Below, piece by piece: positions 1,236 through 53,959 of a DNA stretch of 64,000 bases. The translations under genes were made by a program, and so were the position numbers. Each line of letters begins with the position of its first letter. The first letter of the stretch is position 1. The stretch is taken from positions 186,001 through 250,000 of the forward strand of contig NZ_FXZK01000001.1 of assembly GCF_900184895.1 (NCBI RefSeq). Reading direction: 5' to 3'. The notes beneath the pieces were generated by a model. The model saw only the letters and a program-made list of their open reading frames with translations, did no database searches and was not told the DNA's origin. Source of the stretch: Flavimaricola marinus (GTDB lineage: Bacteria > Pseudomonadota > Alphaproteobacteria > Rhodobacterales > Rhodobacteraceae).

Positions 1236-1619
1236 TTACACCACGATCGCGGTGAAGATCGTCATCAGGACTGCGATGATCACCATCGCCTGCCCCATCA
1301 TCTCCGACTTGTGCACATCCAGCAGATATCCCGCATCCCACACCAGATGACGCAGCCCGCCGAGCATGTGATACCAGAGCGCTCCGACGCTGAGAAACAG
1401 CACCAGATCGCCAAACCAACTTGTGATCACACCGTTGGCCGTTGCGAAGGCTTCGGGCCCAGCGGCGGCAGCGGCAAACCACCATACGATGAGCAGTGTC
1501 GCCACGATCAGCGCGTTTCCGGTAATCCGCACGAAAATGGACGTCATCGACGTCCATTGCGGACGGTAGATCGTCAGATGCGGCGAGAGGGGGCGATTTC
1601 CCCGATTCACATCGGCCAT
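1236..1619 (-). CDS. sdhC: Succinate dehydrogenase cytochrome b556 subunit SdhC
   Basis: Cytochrome b subunit of complex II. The start MADVNRGNRPLSPHLTIYRP was chosen over an upstream in-frame start because AGGAAGGGA precedes it and the conserved 'RPLSPHLxIYR' signature begins ten residues in; this gives 127 residues, the usual length. Three membrane spans are visible. The haem-ligand region is 'WYHMLGGLRHLVWDAGYLLD', with the His of GLRHLVWD as the expected axial ligand. First gene of the sdh operon, with a paired palindromic operator about 145-175 bp upstream of the start. Confidence 0.95.
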   Translation of the reverse strand: MADVNRGNRPLSPHLTIYRPQWTSMTSIFVRITGNALIVATLLIVWWFAAAAAGPEAFATANGVITSWFGDLVLFLSVGALWYHMLGGLRHLVWDAGYLLDVHKSEMMGQAMVIIAVLMTIFTAIVV

Positions 1620-1761
1620 GAGAGTTCCCTTCCTGGCAATCGGCATAGGTCGGCTAACGCGCCAAACTTGGCACCTTGTGACGCATTTTCCGGGGGAAGT
1701 CATCCACCCGCAAGGGTTAAAACCGCGTCATCAAGCCGCGAAATCGCAGAAAGTTTCGCTC

Positions 1762-1792
1762 TGTGATCACGGCAGCCGAGACTGTGATCACA
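1762..1792. promoter_or_regulatory. Paired palindromic operator upstream of sdhC
   Basis: Two copies of the 10-bp palindrome TGTGATCAC(A/G) at 1762-1771 and 1783-1792, exactly 21 bp apart start to start, so on the same DNA face. They lie in the 279-bp gap between sdhC and the preceding co-directional gene. The same pair with the same spacing precedes sucC. Too short to be a CRP or FNR site, since it lacks the internal 4-6 bp spacer. Probably the binding site of a regulator of TCA genes that acts as a dimer of dimers (inference). Confidence 0.7.
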
Positions 1793-1898: not shown

Positions 1899-2324
1899 CT
1901 AGCGCAGCTGCTCCAGAGCCTCGCGAACCGACGTCTGAAACGACAAGGACATCACCGCGACCTCACCGTCCATATGGAACCCGGCCAGATAGACGAACAA
2001 GGATCTGGCCTCGTCCTCGGTCCGCAAGGAAAAGATCTCTTGCACCAACCCCGGATCGTCGCGGCGTTGAACCACAGAGGTGCAGTGCGTGAACCCACCG
2101 GGAAAGTAGTTGGCAAGCCCGGTCGTCATGCCGGACCACATCTCGTCGGAAACAGACATCTTCGACAAGAGCGGCCCCAGGGACTCGCGCGTTACGCCAT
2201 CGAGAAAGACCTGCTTGACCGCTTCGAAATTCGGGACCACCTCAGATGGGCTGGGATCACACACCTGAGCGGCGGCGGGAGCCCCGGCCAGAAGGCAGAC
2301 AGCAATCAGGTGCGCGTGTTTCAT
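1899..2324 (-). CDS. Secreted hypothetical protein
   Basis: 141 residues starting with a clear signal peptide (MKHAHLIAVCLLAGAPAAAQ, cleavage likely after AAA-Q), then a mature part of about 120 residues with two cysteines (in QVCDPSP and FTHCTSV) that could form a disulfide. I do not recognise a family. Its ATG overlaps the mch stop by 4 bp (ATGA), so it is the last gene of the mcl2-nnrU-DUF1737-mch unit and presumably translationally coupled. Periplasmic location is likely; function is unknown. Confidence 0.75.
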   Translation of the reverse strand: MKHAHLIAVCLLAGAPAAAQVCDPSPSEVVPNFEAVKQVFLDGVTRESLGPLLSKMSVSDEMWSGMTTGLANYFPGGFTHCTSVVQRRDDPGLVQEIFSLRTEDEARSLFVYLAGFHMDGEVAVMSLSFQTSVREALEQLR

Positions 2325-3346
2325 ACAGGCATCAAGGCCCAGAAATCCAAATCAAGCAAGACGTCGGAGAGATATTTACCGTCAGCCCCTCGCAACGCAC
2401 CGGCTTCGCCCTTGGTCGCTACCAACCGCAGCCGGACGGCTCCGACCCCCGGAGCCTTAGTTTCGGCCGTTGCCAGCACTTCGGACCAAGCCCGGACCGT
2501 GTCGCCAGAGAAGCAGGGGTTTGCGTGCGCACCTGCGTTGAGGGCCACGATCAGCTGCGCATTCGCCAATCCGTTGAACGAAAGCGCACGAGCCAAGGAG
2601 ATCAAATGTCCGCCATAAATCAGACGCTTGCCGTCGTCGCGCTGAGTAGCATCGAAATGCACCTTGGCGGTGTTCTGCCAAAGCCGGGTTGCCAGCATAT
2701 GTTCGGCCTCTTCGACGGTCACGCCGTCTACGTGGTCGATGATCTCGCCGACGGAATAGTCACTCAACCGATGAGGTTCGCCGGCCAGACCGAAATCATA
2801 ACCTGTGAAATCTAGGCCATCCGGCACCACAAGCGTTTCGGGCGGGACAACGGACGCCAAATCGGGAATGACGGCCTGCGGCGCCTCTCCCGGTGCACGC
2901 CGGCGCACCATGACCCAGCGAACGTAGCTCAAAACTTCGGTGCCATGCTGGTTGAGTCCGCGCGTCCTAACCCAGACCACCCCACTCTTTCCGTTGGAGT
3001 TCTGTTTGAGGCCAATGACTTCCGACTGTGCGCGCAGGGTATCGCCCGGCCAGACCGGAGCAAGCCACCGCCCCTCGGCATAGCCGAGGTTGGCAACGGC
3101 ATTCAGCGACACGTCGGGAACGGTTTTGCCAAAAACCGTGTGGAACGCTATCAGATCGTCGAGCGGTGCGGCCGGAAGCCCGCAGTCGGCTGCAAATGCG
3201 TCCGAGGAATAAAGCGCGCCCCGCGCAGGATAGAGCGCGTGATACAGGGCTCGCTCTCCTCCGGACAGCGTCCGCGGCACCGCATGGTCTATCACCTCGC
3301 CGAGCCGGTAGTCCTCGAAAAAGCGGCCAGCGTTGGTTTTCGTCAT
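2321..3346 (-). CDS. mch: Mesaconyl-CoA hydratase (beta-methylmalyl-CoA dehydratase), MaoC superfamily
   Basis: Interconverts mesaconyl-C1-CoA and beta-methylmalyl-CoA in the ethylmalonyl-CoA pathway of acetyl-CoA assimilation. The 341-residue product carries two hot-dog halves. The N-terminal half includes 'GRFFEDYRLGEVIDHAVPRTL' and 'LDDLIAFHTVFGKTVPD'; the C-terminal half contains 'YGGHLISLARALSFNGL', matching known alphaproteobacterial Mch. It is followed with 4-bp overlap by a secreted protein and preceded with 4-bp overlap by a DUF1737 gene. The nearby malyl-CoA thioesterase/lyase supports the pathway call; in Rhodobacter sphaeroides mch and mcl2 are also close neighbours (from memory). 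Confidence 0.9.
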   Translation of the reverse strand: MTKTNAGRFFEDYRLGEVIDHAVPRTLSGGERALYHALYPARGALYSSDAFAADCGLPAAPLDDLIAFHTVFGKTVPDVSLNAVANLGYAEGRWLAPVWPGDTLRAQSEVIGLKQNSNGKSGVVWVRTRGLNQHGTEVLSYVRWVMVRRRAPGEAPQAVIPDLASVVPPETLVVPDGLDFTGYDFGLAGEPHRLSDYSVGEIIDHVDGVTVEEAEHMLATRLWQNTAKVHFDATQRDDGKRLIYGGHLISLARALSFNGLANAQLIVALNAGAHANPCFSGDTVRAWSEVLATAETKAPGVGAVRLRLVATKGEAGALRGADGKYLSDVLLDLDFWALMPV

Positions 3347-3552
3347 TGCTGGCCCAGCTTCATATCCGGGGAATAGTCCTGCGGCACGTCCTTAGTCACC
3401 GCTTGTGCACAGCGCATCACACCGTTGGCAGCGTCAAAGCCGTAGGCTGGATCGCCGTAGAGTTCCCAACCCTTTGACAATGCCTCGGACACTTTGTGGC
3501 AGAATTCCGACGTGTCATCCGCGGTCAGCAATCGATACAGTTTTGCCATCAT
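3343..3552 (-). CDS. DUF1737 family small protein
   Basis: 69 residues beginning MMAKLYRLLTADDTSEFCHKV, with the W-E-L-Y-G-x-P segment (residues 29-35) characteristic of DUF1737 proteins, which are small and functionally uncharacterised. Start and stop are fixed by neighbours: the end overlaps the mch start by 4 bp and the start lies one base from the stop of the NnrU-family gene. Probably cytosolic. Its job in the ethylmalonyl-CoA unit is unknown. Confidence 0.8.
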   Translation of the reverse strand: MMAKLYRLLTADDTSEFCHKVSEALSKGWELYGDPAYGFDAANGVMRCAQAVTKDVPQDYSPDMKLGQQ

Positions 3553-3553
3553 T

Positions 3554-4114
3554 TCACCCCCAAGGTTGTACGCCGAGCCAATTGTGGATCAGCATCACGA
3601 CAGTCACGATGACCAGCGTCAACACGACATAGATGGCTTCCTTGCGGGCGCCTCCATGAGCTGGCGGAGTCCAGGCCGGTTCTTGCGAATTGATCAGTGC
3701 GATTTCGACCAACGCCCAGATCAGCAGCCCTCCAAAGAGTACGAACGATGCAACATCGCCGTTCACCAAAAGGTGCGCCACGGCCCAGAGCGAAAAACCG
3801 GTTAGTTGCGGATGGCGCATCTTGGTGCCCAGCCAGACACGAGGCTTCCCTGCTGCTGGCCCCCCTACGGCATAGACATAGAATGCCACGACCATCAGCA
3901 GATTGTTGATCCCCACCAAAGGCGCAGACCGCCCCCAGAAGACCGCACCTTCGGCACCACGATATCCGATCACCATAAGAACCACGCTCAGCACGATGGC
4001 GACCGCAACAAGTCCTTTGCCCGGATCACCCAACTTGCCCCGTGGCCCCGGCGCCAAACGCTTGAACAGATGCGCGGCCCACCAAAGAGCGACGCCCAAA
4101 ATCAATAGTGTCAT
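3554..4114 (-). CDS. NnrU-family integral membrane protein
   Basis: 186 residues with five or so hydrophobic segments spaced over the whole length. 'GTKMRHPQLTGFSLWAVAHLLVNGD' (about residues 96-120) is the hallmark of the NnrU/isoprenylcysteine-methyltransferase-like family; the His residues of RHPQ and AHLLVNGD are the conserved ones. NnrU was named in denitrifiers, but the family is widespread in Rhodobacterales without denitrification, and nothing here points to nitrogen oxides. The start overlaps the stop of the malyl-CoA thioesterase/lyase gene by 4 bp. Confidence 0.85.
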   Translation of the reverse strand: MTLLILGVALWWAAHLFKRLAPGPRGKLGDPGKGLVAVAIVLSVVLMVIGYRGAEGAVFWGRSAPLVGINNLLMVVAFYVYAVGGPAAGKPRVWLGTKMRHPQLTGFSLWAVAHLLVNGDVASFVLFGGLLIWALVEIALINSQEPAWTPPAHGGARKEAIYVVLTLVIVTVVMLIHNWLGVQPWG

Positions 4115-4959
4115 GCGCCCTCAAGCTCCTCGATGGCATCCCTTTTCGCCAAGGTCGCCTTTGCCGTGACGATATGCAAGTTCTCCACGATCTTGCCATC
4201 AACGACAGCGACGCCCTCGCCCTTGGCCTCTGCCTCCGCAAAGGCTGCAATCTGTCGTTCGGCCAGGTCGATTTCGTCAGCAGAAGGCGCGAATGCTGCG
4301 TTCGCCAGTTCCAACTGGTCGGGATGAATCAGAGATTTGCCGTCGAACCCCATGTCGCGGCCCTGCGCGCATTCGTGAGCCAGACCCTCCATATCGCGGA
4401 ACGCGTTGTAGACTCCGTCCAGCGCCACGCGGCCGTAGGCCCGAGCCGCCACGAGGCATGTCTGAAGCGCGAACAGCAACGGTTCGCGGAATTGGCTCGA
4501 CCGCGTTCCGAGATCCTTCGCGAGATCGTTGGTGCCCAAGACAATTCCGGCCAGTCTGGGATGCGCACAGATACTGGCCGCATTCAGCACCCCCAAAGGT
4601 GTCTCCATCATCGCCCAGATCGGCAGATCTCCGACCAGTTCCGCCAATGCATCCAGATCCGCGGGCCCGTTCACTTTGGGTAAGAGAACACCGTCGCAAT
4701 CCATATCCGCCACGGCCAATGCGTCGTCGCGGCCCCATTCTGTTTCGAGCGCATTGATCCTGACGATCCGGGCGCGTGGCCCATAGCCCCCTTCTGCCAA
4801 CGCTTCAGCCAGCGCCGCGCGAGCGGCAACCTTTTCGGACGGCACAACGGCGTCTTCCAGATCAAAAAGGATGGCATCGGTCTGCAACGTGCGCGCCTTG
4901 GCCAGCGCACGGGACCGCGAGGCTGGAATATACAAGGCGGAACGATAGGGGCGGGTCAT
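4111..4959 (-). CDS. mcl2: CitE/HpcH-family (3S)-malyl-CoA thioesterase or malyl-CoA lyase
   Basis: Member of the CitE-like TIM-barrel family acting on malyl-CoA, 282 residues. Visible motifs are 'RSALYIPASRSRALAKA' near the N-terminus, 'DAILFDLEDAVVPSEK' (metal and CoA region), the ARIVRIN strand, 'PIWAMMETPLGVLNA' with the metal-binding Glu, and 'LGTNDLAKDL'. Linkage to mch and the length favour the stand-alone (3S)-malyl-CoA thioesterase Mcl2 of the ethylmalonyl-CoA pathway over the longer Mcl1 lyase; this choice is inference. Start at MTRPYRS because AGGAAGGA lies just upstream. First gene of a five-gene co-directional overlapping unit. Confidence 0.82.
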   Translation of the reverse strand: MTRPYRSALYIPASRSRALAKARTLQTDAILFDLEDAVVPSEKVAARAALAEALAEGGYGPRARIVRINALETEWGRDDALAVADMDCDGVLLPKVNGPADLDALAELVGDLPIWAMMETPLGVLNAASICAHPRLAGIVLGTNDLAKDLGTRSSQFREPLLFALQTCLVAARAYGRVALDGVYNAFRDMEGLAHECAQGRDMGFDGKSLIHPDQLELANAAFAPSADEIDLAERQIAAFAEAEAKGEGVAVVDGKIVENLHIVTAKATLAKRDAIEELEGA

Positions 4960-5264
4960 CTCAAGGTCCTTCCTGACATGCATTCACTGAATGCTGGTCG
5001 CAATAAAGTTGCGCGCAGAAAGCCCAAAATTTGGGGATATTTCAACCCCAAATGCGCCGCAGCGCAGCATTCCGCAGATGTTGCGCGGTATGACTGCAAC
5101 CGGGCACGGTCCGTTAACCATTATTTGTCAGGCTATCTTCAGACTTCCTCGACAGAAGGGCCGCAGAAGGATGGGGCGCTCAACCAAACGGGCGATGGAC
5201 AAGGCGGTTTCAAGATCATGACACGCAACGCGTCGGGCCGGGCATACCGGAGCCGCGCCAACCA
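4960..5264. other. Divergent intergenic region, no gene seen
   Basis: About 305 bases between the divergently read mcl2-type gene and the small secreted-protein gene. It should hold both promoters. It includes an AT-richer stretch around 5100-5140 (GTTAACCATTATTTGTCAGG) on the side of the rightward gene. Short reading frames crossing it have no ribosome binding site or recognisable product. No tRNA or clear operator was found. Confidence 0.6.
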
Positions 5265-8862: not shown

Positions 8863-8893
8863 TGTGATCACACCCAAAATCGCTGTGATCACA
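8863..8893. promoter_or_regulatory. Paired palindromic operator upstream of sucC
   Basis: Two perfect TGTGATCACA palindromes at 8863-8872 and 8884-8893, start-to-start spacing 21 bp, 97-127 bp before the sucC start and inside the divergent gap with the glycosyltransferase. Identical in unit and spacing to the pair in front of sdhC. Both pairs share the flank CTGTGATCACAAAT on one member. Strong candidate operator for coordinated TCA control; activator or repressor cannot be decided from sequence. Confidence 0.75.
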
Positions 8894-8989
8894 AATGTCG
8901 CTTTTTTCGGGTTTGGGTATTTTATTCCTAAAAAGGTAAGACATAAGCCCGTAAGGTACAGAAAATTCCAAGCCGAACGGGACCGATCC

Positions 8990-10183
8990 ATGAATATCCA
9001 CGAATATCAGGCCAAAGCACTCTTGCGGTCCTACGGGGCTCCGGTCAGCGACGGCCGCGCTGTTCTCAAGGCCGAAGACGCGAAAACCGCCGCCGGCCAG
9101 ATGGACGGGCCACTCTGGGTGGTCAAGGCACAAATCCACGCCGGCGGCCGCGGCAAGGGCCACTTCAAAGAGGCCGATGCGGGCGACAAAGGCGGCGTGC
9201 GCCTGACCAAATCGGTCGAAGAGGCCGCTCAGGAAGCCAAGAAAATGCTCGGCCGCACGCTCGTGACCAAGCAGACCGGCCCGGCGGGCAAGCAGGTCAA
9301 TCGCATCTATATCGAAGATGGCTCCGGCATCGAGACGGAAATGTACCTGGCGATCCTTGTGGACCGTCAAACCAGCCGGATCTCGTTCGTCGCCTCGACC
9401 GAAGGCGGCATGGATATCGAAGAAGTCGCCGAAAAGACGCCCGACCTGATCCACACGTTCGATGTCGATCCTGCCACCGGCTACCAGCCCTTCCATGGCC
9501 GCGGTATCGCCTTTGCGCTTGGCCTCAAGGGGCCACAGGTCAAACAATGCGTCGCACTCATGGGAACGCTCTACAAGCTCTTCACCGACAAGGATATGGA
9601 GATGCTGGAGATCAATCCGCTCATCGTGACCGATGCGGGTGATTTGAAATGCCTCGACGCCAAGATGGGTTTTGACGGCAATGCGATCTATCGGCACGCC
9701 GATATCGCCAGCTTGCGCGACGAAACCGAAGAAGATCCGAAAGAACTCGCCGCTTCGAAGTATGACCTGAACTATATCGCCCTCGATGGCGAAATCGGCT
9801 GCATGGTCAACGGCGCGGGCCTTGCAATGGCGACGATGGATATCATCAAGCTCTACGGCGCGGAGCCGGCCAACTTCCTCGATGTTGGTGGCGGCGCGAC
9901 CAAGGAGAAAGTCACCGAAGCATTCAAGATCATCACCTCGGATCCGCAAGTAAAAGGCATCTTGGTTAACATCTTCGGCGGTATCATGCGCTGCGACGTG
10001 ATCGCCGAAGGCGTCATCGCCGCGGTCAAGGAGGTCGGCTTGAAGGTTCCGCTTGTTGTCCGCCTAGAAGGCACCAACGTCGAGAAAGGCAAGGAAATTA
10101 TCCGCAACTCCGGCCTCGACGTGATCGCTGCCGACGACCTTAAGGACGGGGCTGAAAAGATCGTCAAGGCCGTCAAAGGCTGA
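8990..10183 (+). CDS. sucC: Succinyl-CoA synthetase beta subunit
   Basis: ADP/GDP-forming succinate-CoA ligase beta chain; forms the nucleotide site with SucD. 397 residues starting [20 protein letters not shown], the conserved ATP-grasp opening. '[19 protein letters not shown]' binds nucleotide, '[12 protein letters not shown]' carries metal ligands, and '[14 protein letters not shown]' with '[14 protein letters not shown]' are the C-terminal power-helix region. The open frame extends upstream, but the family start and the Shine-Dalgarno-like CGGGA place initiation here. First gene of sucC-lipoproteins-sucD-sucA-sucB-lpd. Confidence 0.97.
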
Positions 10184-53263: not shown

Positions 53264-53959
53264 GTGAATAATGTGAATTCTGTCGCCCCCGATGACATGC
53301 CGCATGACATTGCCCCGATCGAGAACGTTCCCCTGCGGGTTCAAGTGGCGGATCGCTTGCGAACGGCGATCCTCAGCGGTCGGCTGAAGCCGGGGACGAG
53401 CCTTGTCGAGACGGCCTTGGCGGATCAAATGAATGTCAGCCGGGCGCCAATACGCGAAGCGATCCAGATTCTCGAAAACGACGGGCTTGTCGAGACCATC
53501 GCCTACAAGGGAAAGCGGGTGAAGCCGCTGACCGCCCGCGAAGTCGGTGAAACCTACTCGCTGCGCGAGGTCTTCGAGGTGATGGCCGTGCGCCGCATTC
53601 TCGACAACGGGGCGCCCCTCGATCAGCTCCGCAAGCATTGCGACACGATGACCGCAGCCGCCCGCGCCGATGATTTCGAGGCGCTGATTGCGGCGGACGA
53701 AGCCTTCCACCACACGCTCATCACGCTGGCAGATCACGATCTGCTGCGGGCGTCCTGGAAAAACCTTTACCTGCGCATTCACCAGATCATGGCTCTGCGC
53801 AACCGCGACGAAAGCAACCTCACCGAGATCGCCAGCAACCACCCCCCCATCGTCGACGCCCTCGAAGCCGGCGACACGGAGCGGGCGATTGCGCTGATCT
53901 CAGAACACACACGCACGCTCGCCACCTTCGATCCGGTGACGATCGCGCAATCCCTGTGA
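53264..53959 (+). CDS. GntR family regulator, FCD (FadR) subfamily
   Basis: 231 residues. N-terminal winged helix (about 24-90): 'LRVQVADRLRTAILSGRLKPGTSLVETALADQMNVSRAPIREAIQIL', then wing 'KGKRVKPLT'. The C-terminal FCD effector domain (97-225) includes 'LREVFEVMAVRRI' and 'DEAFHHTLITLADHDLL' with the His/Asp metal-site pattern, and a later 'EHTRTLATF'. GTG start with GAGG nine bases upstream. Flanked by the importer and its second binding protein, so a substrate-sensing controller of the supercluster is likely. Confidence 0.92.
   Translation: MNNVNSVAPDDMPHDIAPIENVPLRVQVADRLRTAILSGRLKPGTSLVETALADQMNVSRAPIREAIQILENDGLVETIAYKGKRVKPLTAREVGETYSLREVFEVMAVRRILDNGAPLDQLRKHCDTMTAAARADDFEALIAADEAFHHTLITLADHDLLRASWKNLYLRIHQIMALRNRDESNLTEIASNHPPIVDALEAGDTERAIALISEHTRTLATFDPVTIAQSL

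Follow-up and report, generated by a model that had tools for sequence, protein, structure and literature searches.

Palindrome pairs two helical turns apart before sdhC and sucC: predicted AkgR double operators in Flavimaricola marinus and related genomes

Two operons of the citric acid cycle in Flavimaricola marinus, those that start with sdhC and with sucC, are each preceded by a pair of TGTGATCAC-type palindromes, at 1762-1792 (sdhC) and at 8863-8893 (sucC) of the window, i.e. the whole stretch of 64,000 nucleotides that was analysed (C16:186001-250000). Comparison of sequences across the family makes it very probable that each pair is a double operator for the GntR-type regulator AkgR, which would act jointly on sdh and suc. 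AkgR is well supported as a candidate and the system is largely a known one.

All four palindromes were re-found where the initial annotation had placed them (Table 1), and the start-to-start spacing, given there as 21 bp for both pairs, was measured as 21 bp in each. An extended flank had been described for one member per pair; indeed, CTGTGATCACAAAT is present at 1782-1795 and at 8883-8896. In the sdh pair this flank is on the distal site and is directed away from the gene, sdhC being encoded on the minus strand. The outer flanks in relatives are roughly symmetric, T-rich before the first core and A-rich after the second, and the CTGTGATCACAAAT-type flank is one half of this arrangement. mdh (5771) was said to lack the pair: no core is found upstream of it in the window, and in relatives a core within 200 bp is present in 2 of 66 non-redundant mdh upstream regions. 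The stretch between sdh and mdh (2321-4983) holds genes for a mesaconyl-CoA hydratase-like (2321-3346), an NnrU-like (3554-4114) and an HpcH/HpaI-type lyase-like protein (4111-4983), and these are perhaps genes of the ethylmalonyl-CoA pathway.

Table 1 Predicted AkgR-type sites, promoter stretches and target genes in the window.
Feature	Position	Strand	Remarks
Palindrome distal to sdhC, AkgR-type (predicted)	1783..1792	.	exact TGTGATCACA; centre about -168 from sdhC start
Palindrome proximal to sdhC, AkgR-type (predicted)	1762..1771	.	TGTGATCACG; centre about -147
Palindrome distal to sucC, AkgR-type (predicted)	8863..8872	.	exact TGTGATCACA; centre about -122
Palindrome proximal to sucC, AkgR-type (predicted)	8884..8893	.	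exact TGTGATCACA; centre about -101
sdhC promoter stretch	1680..1759	-	in relatives, A/T runs with a period of ~10.5 bp, phased with the sites (set-level result)
sucC promoter stretch	8896..8975	+	in relatives, A/T runs with a period of ~10.25-10.5 bp, phased with the sites (set-level result)
sdhC (target; heads the succinate dehydrogenase operon)	1236..1619	-	Pfam Sdh_cyt
sucC (target; heads the succinyl-CoA synthetase / 2-oxoglutarate dehydrogenase operon)	8990..10183	+	Pfam ATP-grasp_2 and Ligase_CoA (Pfam basis for sucC only)

With up to one mismatch, TGTGATCACA occurs 11 times in the window, where 1.64 are expected, and none of 100 shuffles reached 11. The whole 4.79-Mb genome has four exact copies, all of them inside the window; three are paired sites and the fourth (1422-1431) is within the sdhC coding sequence, where it reads as Val-Ile-Thr codons. 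Such an internal core is not generally conserved, because it is present in 10 of 61 sdhC genes and at a position similar to 1422 in six of the 61, and the palindrome at 1422 was therefore rejected as a third operator. Single cores with up to one mismatch are not rare, with 91 places genome-wide as compared to 14 for the reversed pattern. From base composition about 0.0008 exact core pairs per genome are expected at one given spacing. The genome-wide search for the 31-bp double motif (up to three mismatches) returned, in 4.79 Mb, only the places before sdhC and sucC, and unrelated genes of this genome do not carry it.

The pair was then aligned in relatives at 80 mdh-region loci, which are the best 80 of 565 confirmed relatives, i.e. 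the nearest ones, and which by their record titles nearly all belong to the Rhodobacteraceae/Rhodobacterales. Of these loci, 60 yielded sdhC and 65 sucC, giving 61 and 66 upstream regions with the window included. Among these best 80 of 565 relatives and the window, a pair at 20-21 bp is present before sucC in 66/66 regions and before sdhC in 57/61. The sucC regions of this set comprise 60 with one pair at 21 bp, three with three cores 21 bp apart and three at 20 bp; the sdhC regions of the same set comprise 54 at 21 bp, three at 20 bp, two with a single core and two with none, and one of the sdhC regions with a 20-bp pair has an additional core at a distance of 32 bp. Between pair and start codon the distance takes 24 distinct values among 45 non-redundant sdhC regions and 16 among 47 sucC regions. 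The two-turn spacing is thus strongly conserved, in contrast to the variable position relative to the start codon, and the conservation of pair and spacing on which the initial annotation had made its proposal depend is borne out. Ladders of three palindromes (21+21 bp) stand before sucC in three of the loci (L044, L055, L058) and were also seen in genomes G135 and G191.

Presence of the pair goes along with presence of the regulator gene. The pattern GTGATCAC N11-15 GTGATCAC was scanned in 248 genomes of the family and is found in 221 of them, one to three times per genome (three times in 7), and its reversed form in 0/248. A close AkgR, a GntR/FCD protein, is encoded in 222 of the 248, close meaning an E value below 1e-70, a cut-off chosen after a gap between about 1e-78 and 2e-55 had been seen. 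Both pair and close AkgR are present in 217 genomes, neither in 22, only the pair in 4 (G019, G033, G096, G114) and only AkgR in 5 (G040, G147, G155, G166, G201); Fisher's test gives p about 7e-23 with genomes treated as independent, a value that is too small because the genomes share ancestry. Of the nine genomes that disagree, four (G033, G096, G147, G166) are 71-77% complete and may reflect assembly gaps, but completeness is given as 100% for G040 and G114. Partial AkgR genes may be present in G033 and G122, which lie at the lower edge of the AkgR threshold. Of the 22 genomes without pair and AkgR, 20 yielded sucC-like genes and 18 an sdhC gene, and an exact core within 200 bp is present at 0/30 of their sucC-like loci (19 of them orthologs, at least 71% identity) and at 0/18 of their sdhC loci. 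Near-matches with up to two mismatches occur in five of these AkgR-less promoters, namely at sucC in L178, L186, L188 and the more distant L200, and at sdhC in L210.

Among 337 genomes of Alphaproteobacteria the pair is present in nine, which are all five of the own family and 4 of 332 others; the reversed pattern as control gave five matches in one genome (G320). Proteins at least 75% identical to AkgR are, among the matches listed for the 337 genomes, encoded only in the five genomes of the own family, and the next have 41% identity or less. Two of the pairs outside the family (L242, L248) are within coding sequences. A third, in G261, has a spacing of 22 bp; it is flanked by a TonB-receptor gene on one side and an alpha/beta-hydrolase gene on the other, and a GntR of 33% identity is encoded some 2.5 kb off.

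We take AkgR to be RSP_0981 of Rhodobacter sphaeroides. In this genome akgR is at C16:258969-259619, 9 kb past the end of the window and 64 kb from sucC. Its product has a GntR domain (PF00392, the N-terminal winged helix) and an FCD domain (PF07729, C-terminal), both above cut-off, and is 76% identical to a GntR protein encoded near sdhB in Cereibacter johrii. There, the gene (L102:760-1401) is close to the sdhB match at 2134-2910, and from this gene order we infer that it is the ortholog of RSP_0981. The place of akgR differs, being some 8 kb beyond sucC in L037 and L040, near sdhB in C. johrii and 64 kb from sucC here. The nearest solved protein by sequence profile is McbR of E. coli (PDB 4p9f, E 2e-23). 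In an alignment of 12 AkgR-type proteins (A1), N137, H141 and H184 are invariant and no invariant histidine follows H184. The usual FCD metal-binding set seems incomplete in AkgR, and therefore the effector may bind without metal.

What is described of AkgR in R. sphaeroides agrees with this assignment. In the passages of PMC6365646 that were covered, GTGATCAC is among the AkgR sites of R. sphaeroides and AkgR is an activator; according to the covered part of PMC4344238, the GntR-family regulator RSP_0981 is predicted to control sucCD (RSP_0967-6), sdh (RSP_0974-6) and 2-oxoglutarate dehydrogenase (RSP_0965-62). AkgR, named as a candidate by the initial annotation, thus fits by its site (PMC6365646), by its predicted sdh and suc targets (PMC4344238) and by its co-occurrence with the pair, and the proposal that one regulator coordinates the two operons gains support from the conserved pair and spacing, from the uniqueness of the double motif in the genome and from the same co-occurrence.

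Could another GntR/FCD regulator with equal half-site specificity bind the pairs? The genome has 17 matches to the FCD domain, one of them inside the window, and GTGATCAC is also the proposed site of PS417_07240 of Pseudomonas simiae, a protein with 32% identity to AkgR (PMC6365646, in the passages covered). In addition, the fourth pair found outside the family (G393, L241; 21 bp) is just before a GntR/FCD gene whose product is 31% identical to AkgR, with a divergent TonB-receptor gene adjoining, which suggests a wider GntR subfamily with the GTGATCAC motif. Against this stands that AkgR tracks the pair across the 248 genomes, in a comparison that covered two of the 17 FCD proteins, AkgR and the GntR of the window. 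The window-encoded GntR (53264-53956) was rejected as the binder, since close orthologs are present in only 6/248 family genomes as compared to the pair in 221. Altogether, we regard binding by another member of this family as very unlikely.

An equally small chance is left for the view that the pair is the operator of a repressor, or that the palindromes are RNA hairpins or methylation (GATC) sites and not activator sites. GATC is indeed inside the core and the palindrome can fold, but presence and absence of the pair follow the akgR gene, upstream activator sites would be expected to show just such a fixed mutual spacing at a variable distance from the start codon, and an activator role of AkgR is reported in the covered passages of PMC6365646. 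Binding of the pairs by CceR, a LacI-family protein, is even less probable. In the parts of the two papers considered, sdh and mdh of R. sphaeroides are predicted targets of CceR (RSP_1663; PMC4344238), and the CceR regulon includes succinate and 2-oxoglutarate dehydrogenase in R. sphaeroides, not in Paracoccus denitrificans (PMC11323563). Its motif, [A/G/T]GTT N6-8 AAC[A/C/T] (PMC4344238), however, differs from the TGTGATCACA core and had no match in the stretches scanned upstream of sdhC, sucC and mdh in the window, and CceR was therefore rejected as the binder at the pairs. The same operons may be regulated by CceR through other sites.

The upstream region of akgR itself was inspected at 30 loci, the 30 best matches among the 248 genomes, i.e. 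those of the nearest relatives. Within about 60 bp of the akgR start an exact core is present in 21/30 of these loci, a one-mismatch site in L166 and none in 8; in these best 30 matches the core is mostly about 8-10 bp before the start, and the sites are single, with no pairs. After redundancy among the 30 had been removed, a core within 200 bp upstream remains in 19/26. In this genome the site is CGTGATCACA at C16:258951-258960, 8 bp before the start. No site was found in the 260 bp inspected before akgR of C. johrii. Judged by its position, the single palindrome probably lets AkgR repress its own gene.

Genomes with a third pair were inspected for further targets. In G042, a third pair at 21 bp (L135:1501-1530) is about 120 bp before the gene for fumarase C (Pfam Lyase_1, FumaraseC_C), another enzyme of the TCA cycle. 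As a general third target fumC was rejected, with an exact core at only 2/30 fumC loci, the G042 pair and one single site; these loci are the 30 best-scoring of 149 genomes, and the start was assumed, not found, in L286, L297 and L304. Other third pairs are within a Mur-ligase-like coding sequence (L226), before a Mem_trans transporter gene (L225, 23 bp), before a Vut_1 transporter gene (L229, 20 bp) and, with a spacing of 19 bp, in G189. We read these four as chance.

A second regular feature of these promoters is downstream of the pair. When relatives are aligned on the pair, A/T content oscillates over the stretch that begins 4 bp and ends 83 bp past the second core, and the period that fits best is 10.5 bp for sdhC (45 non-redundant promoters of 54) and 10.25 bp for sucC (47 non-redundant of 63). 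The power is 0.117 and 0.103, respectively, as compared to a rotation-null maximum averaging 0.020, and 0/2000 rotations reached it. Upstream of the pair the signal is weak (0.033 vs 0.016, 0/2000; 0.023 vs 0.015, p 0.01). A replicate set consisted of 22 sdhC and 23 sucC promoters, each less than 65% identical over 60 bp to any member of the first set; pair loci of the own genome and pairs known not to be at sdh or suc were excluded from it. At 10.5 bp this set gave 0.122 for sdhC and 0.085 for sucC, as compared to null means of 0.019 and 0.016 (0/5000). The phase is locked to the sites (0.117, 0.095) and not to the start codon (0.024, 0.041), and an effect of the start codon was rejected as the origin of the A/T runs since that lock is much weaker; for sucC the start-codon lock (0.041) is still near the top of its rotation null (0.042). 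Tracts of at least four A/T without a TpA step number 2.5 and 2.7 per 80 bp, as compared to 1.0 and 1.2 in shuffles. For single sequences, mean z peaks, across all offsets tried, at 2.2 for sucC and 2.6 for sdhC, as compared to 0.9 for mdh, 1.0 for the gene at 4983, 0.3 for AkgR-less sucC and 0.7 for AkgR-less sdhC. Phasing is weak or absent at mdh and in AkgR-less genomes, and therefore the runs go with AkgR-type promoters. Upstream of akgR z rises to 1.7 in the stretch 100-180 bp ahead of the start; in F. marinus this stretch falls within the preceding reading frame. A conserved -10 element was sought downstream of the pair in the promoters of relatives; none could be fixed, and -35/-10 were not located.

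From these data a model can be drawn that rests on geometry and comparison of sequences. Two AkgR dimers would sit on the two palindromes, on the same face of the helix and two turns apart. Most likely, they would contact each other as well as RNA polymerase and so switch on sdh and suc together. Cooperative binding of AkgR is suggested by the 21-bp same-face geometry, and the triple 21+21-bp ladders would fit contacts from dimer to dimer; as these three-site ladders suggest, the AkgR assembly perhaps extends along the DNA. The phased A/T runs may curve the promoter DNA; recurring every ~10.5 bp between pair and gene, they would probably curve it such that bound AkgR meets the polymerase. At akgR, the single palindrome before the start codon would probably serve autorepression.

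It is tempting to go one step further and to regard the AkgR promoters as architectural. The pair would then seed a curved arc, the phased A/T runs over some 80 bp would wrap the promoter round the AkgR assembly and the helical phasing of the whole promoter, beyond that of the sites, would carry the activation signal. At akgR, one site with no array of this kind would instead repress the gene. We consider this extended model an appreciable possibility, with somewhat better odds against it than for it.

The double operator of 31 bp is tied here to a named regulator across a bacterial family. It gives an exact prediction that can be addressed by mutation: activation of the TCA operons should depend on helical phase, so that spacings of 21 or 20 bp work and a shift by half a turn should not. 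Because of the phase-locked A/T runs downstream, these promoters are also a small natural system in which the joint action of promoter curvature and activator spacing can be tested.

Among known systems, the E. coli protein McbR (PDB 4p9f) is a relative of AkgR in sequence only; its operator and its function are different. The CceR/GapR (RSP_1663) regulon of these bacteria covers central carbon metabolism and, in R. sphaeroides, includes sdh (PMC4344238, PMC4052901, PMC11323563, in the parts considered), but the regulator is of the LacI family and its motif is another one, with no match in the upstream regions of the window. Closer is the GntR regulator of the deoxyribonate cluster in P. simiae (PS417_07240), which shares the core GTGATCAC and 32% identity with AkgR; as described in the covered passages of PMC6365646, it has a single site, spanning -47 to -40 relative to the start codon of the regulator gene that heads the cluster, and serves another pathway. 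In the passages on AkgR and CceR that were covered, from which the primary AkgR paper stands apart, the fixed 21-bp pair, the three-site ladders, the single akgR site and the phased A/T runs are unmentioned, no search having been aimed at the A/T runs. Closest of all is the AkgR (RSP_0981) regulon of R. sphaeroides (Imam et al. 2015). As far as the covered parts of PMC6365646 and PMC4344238 go, the core GTGATCAC is common to both, likewise the sdh and suc/2-oxoglutarate dehydrogenase targets; in difference to that regulon, akgR is here 64 kb from sucC. Regulator, motif and target operons are thus already known from R. sphaeroides, and what is new is the member of this system in a related genome.
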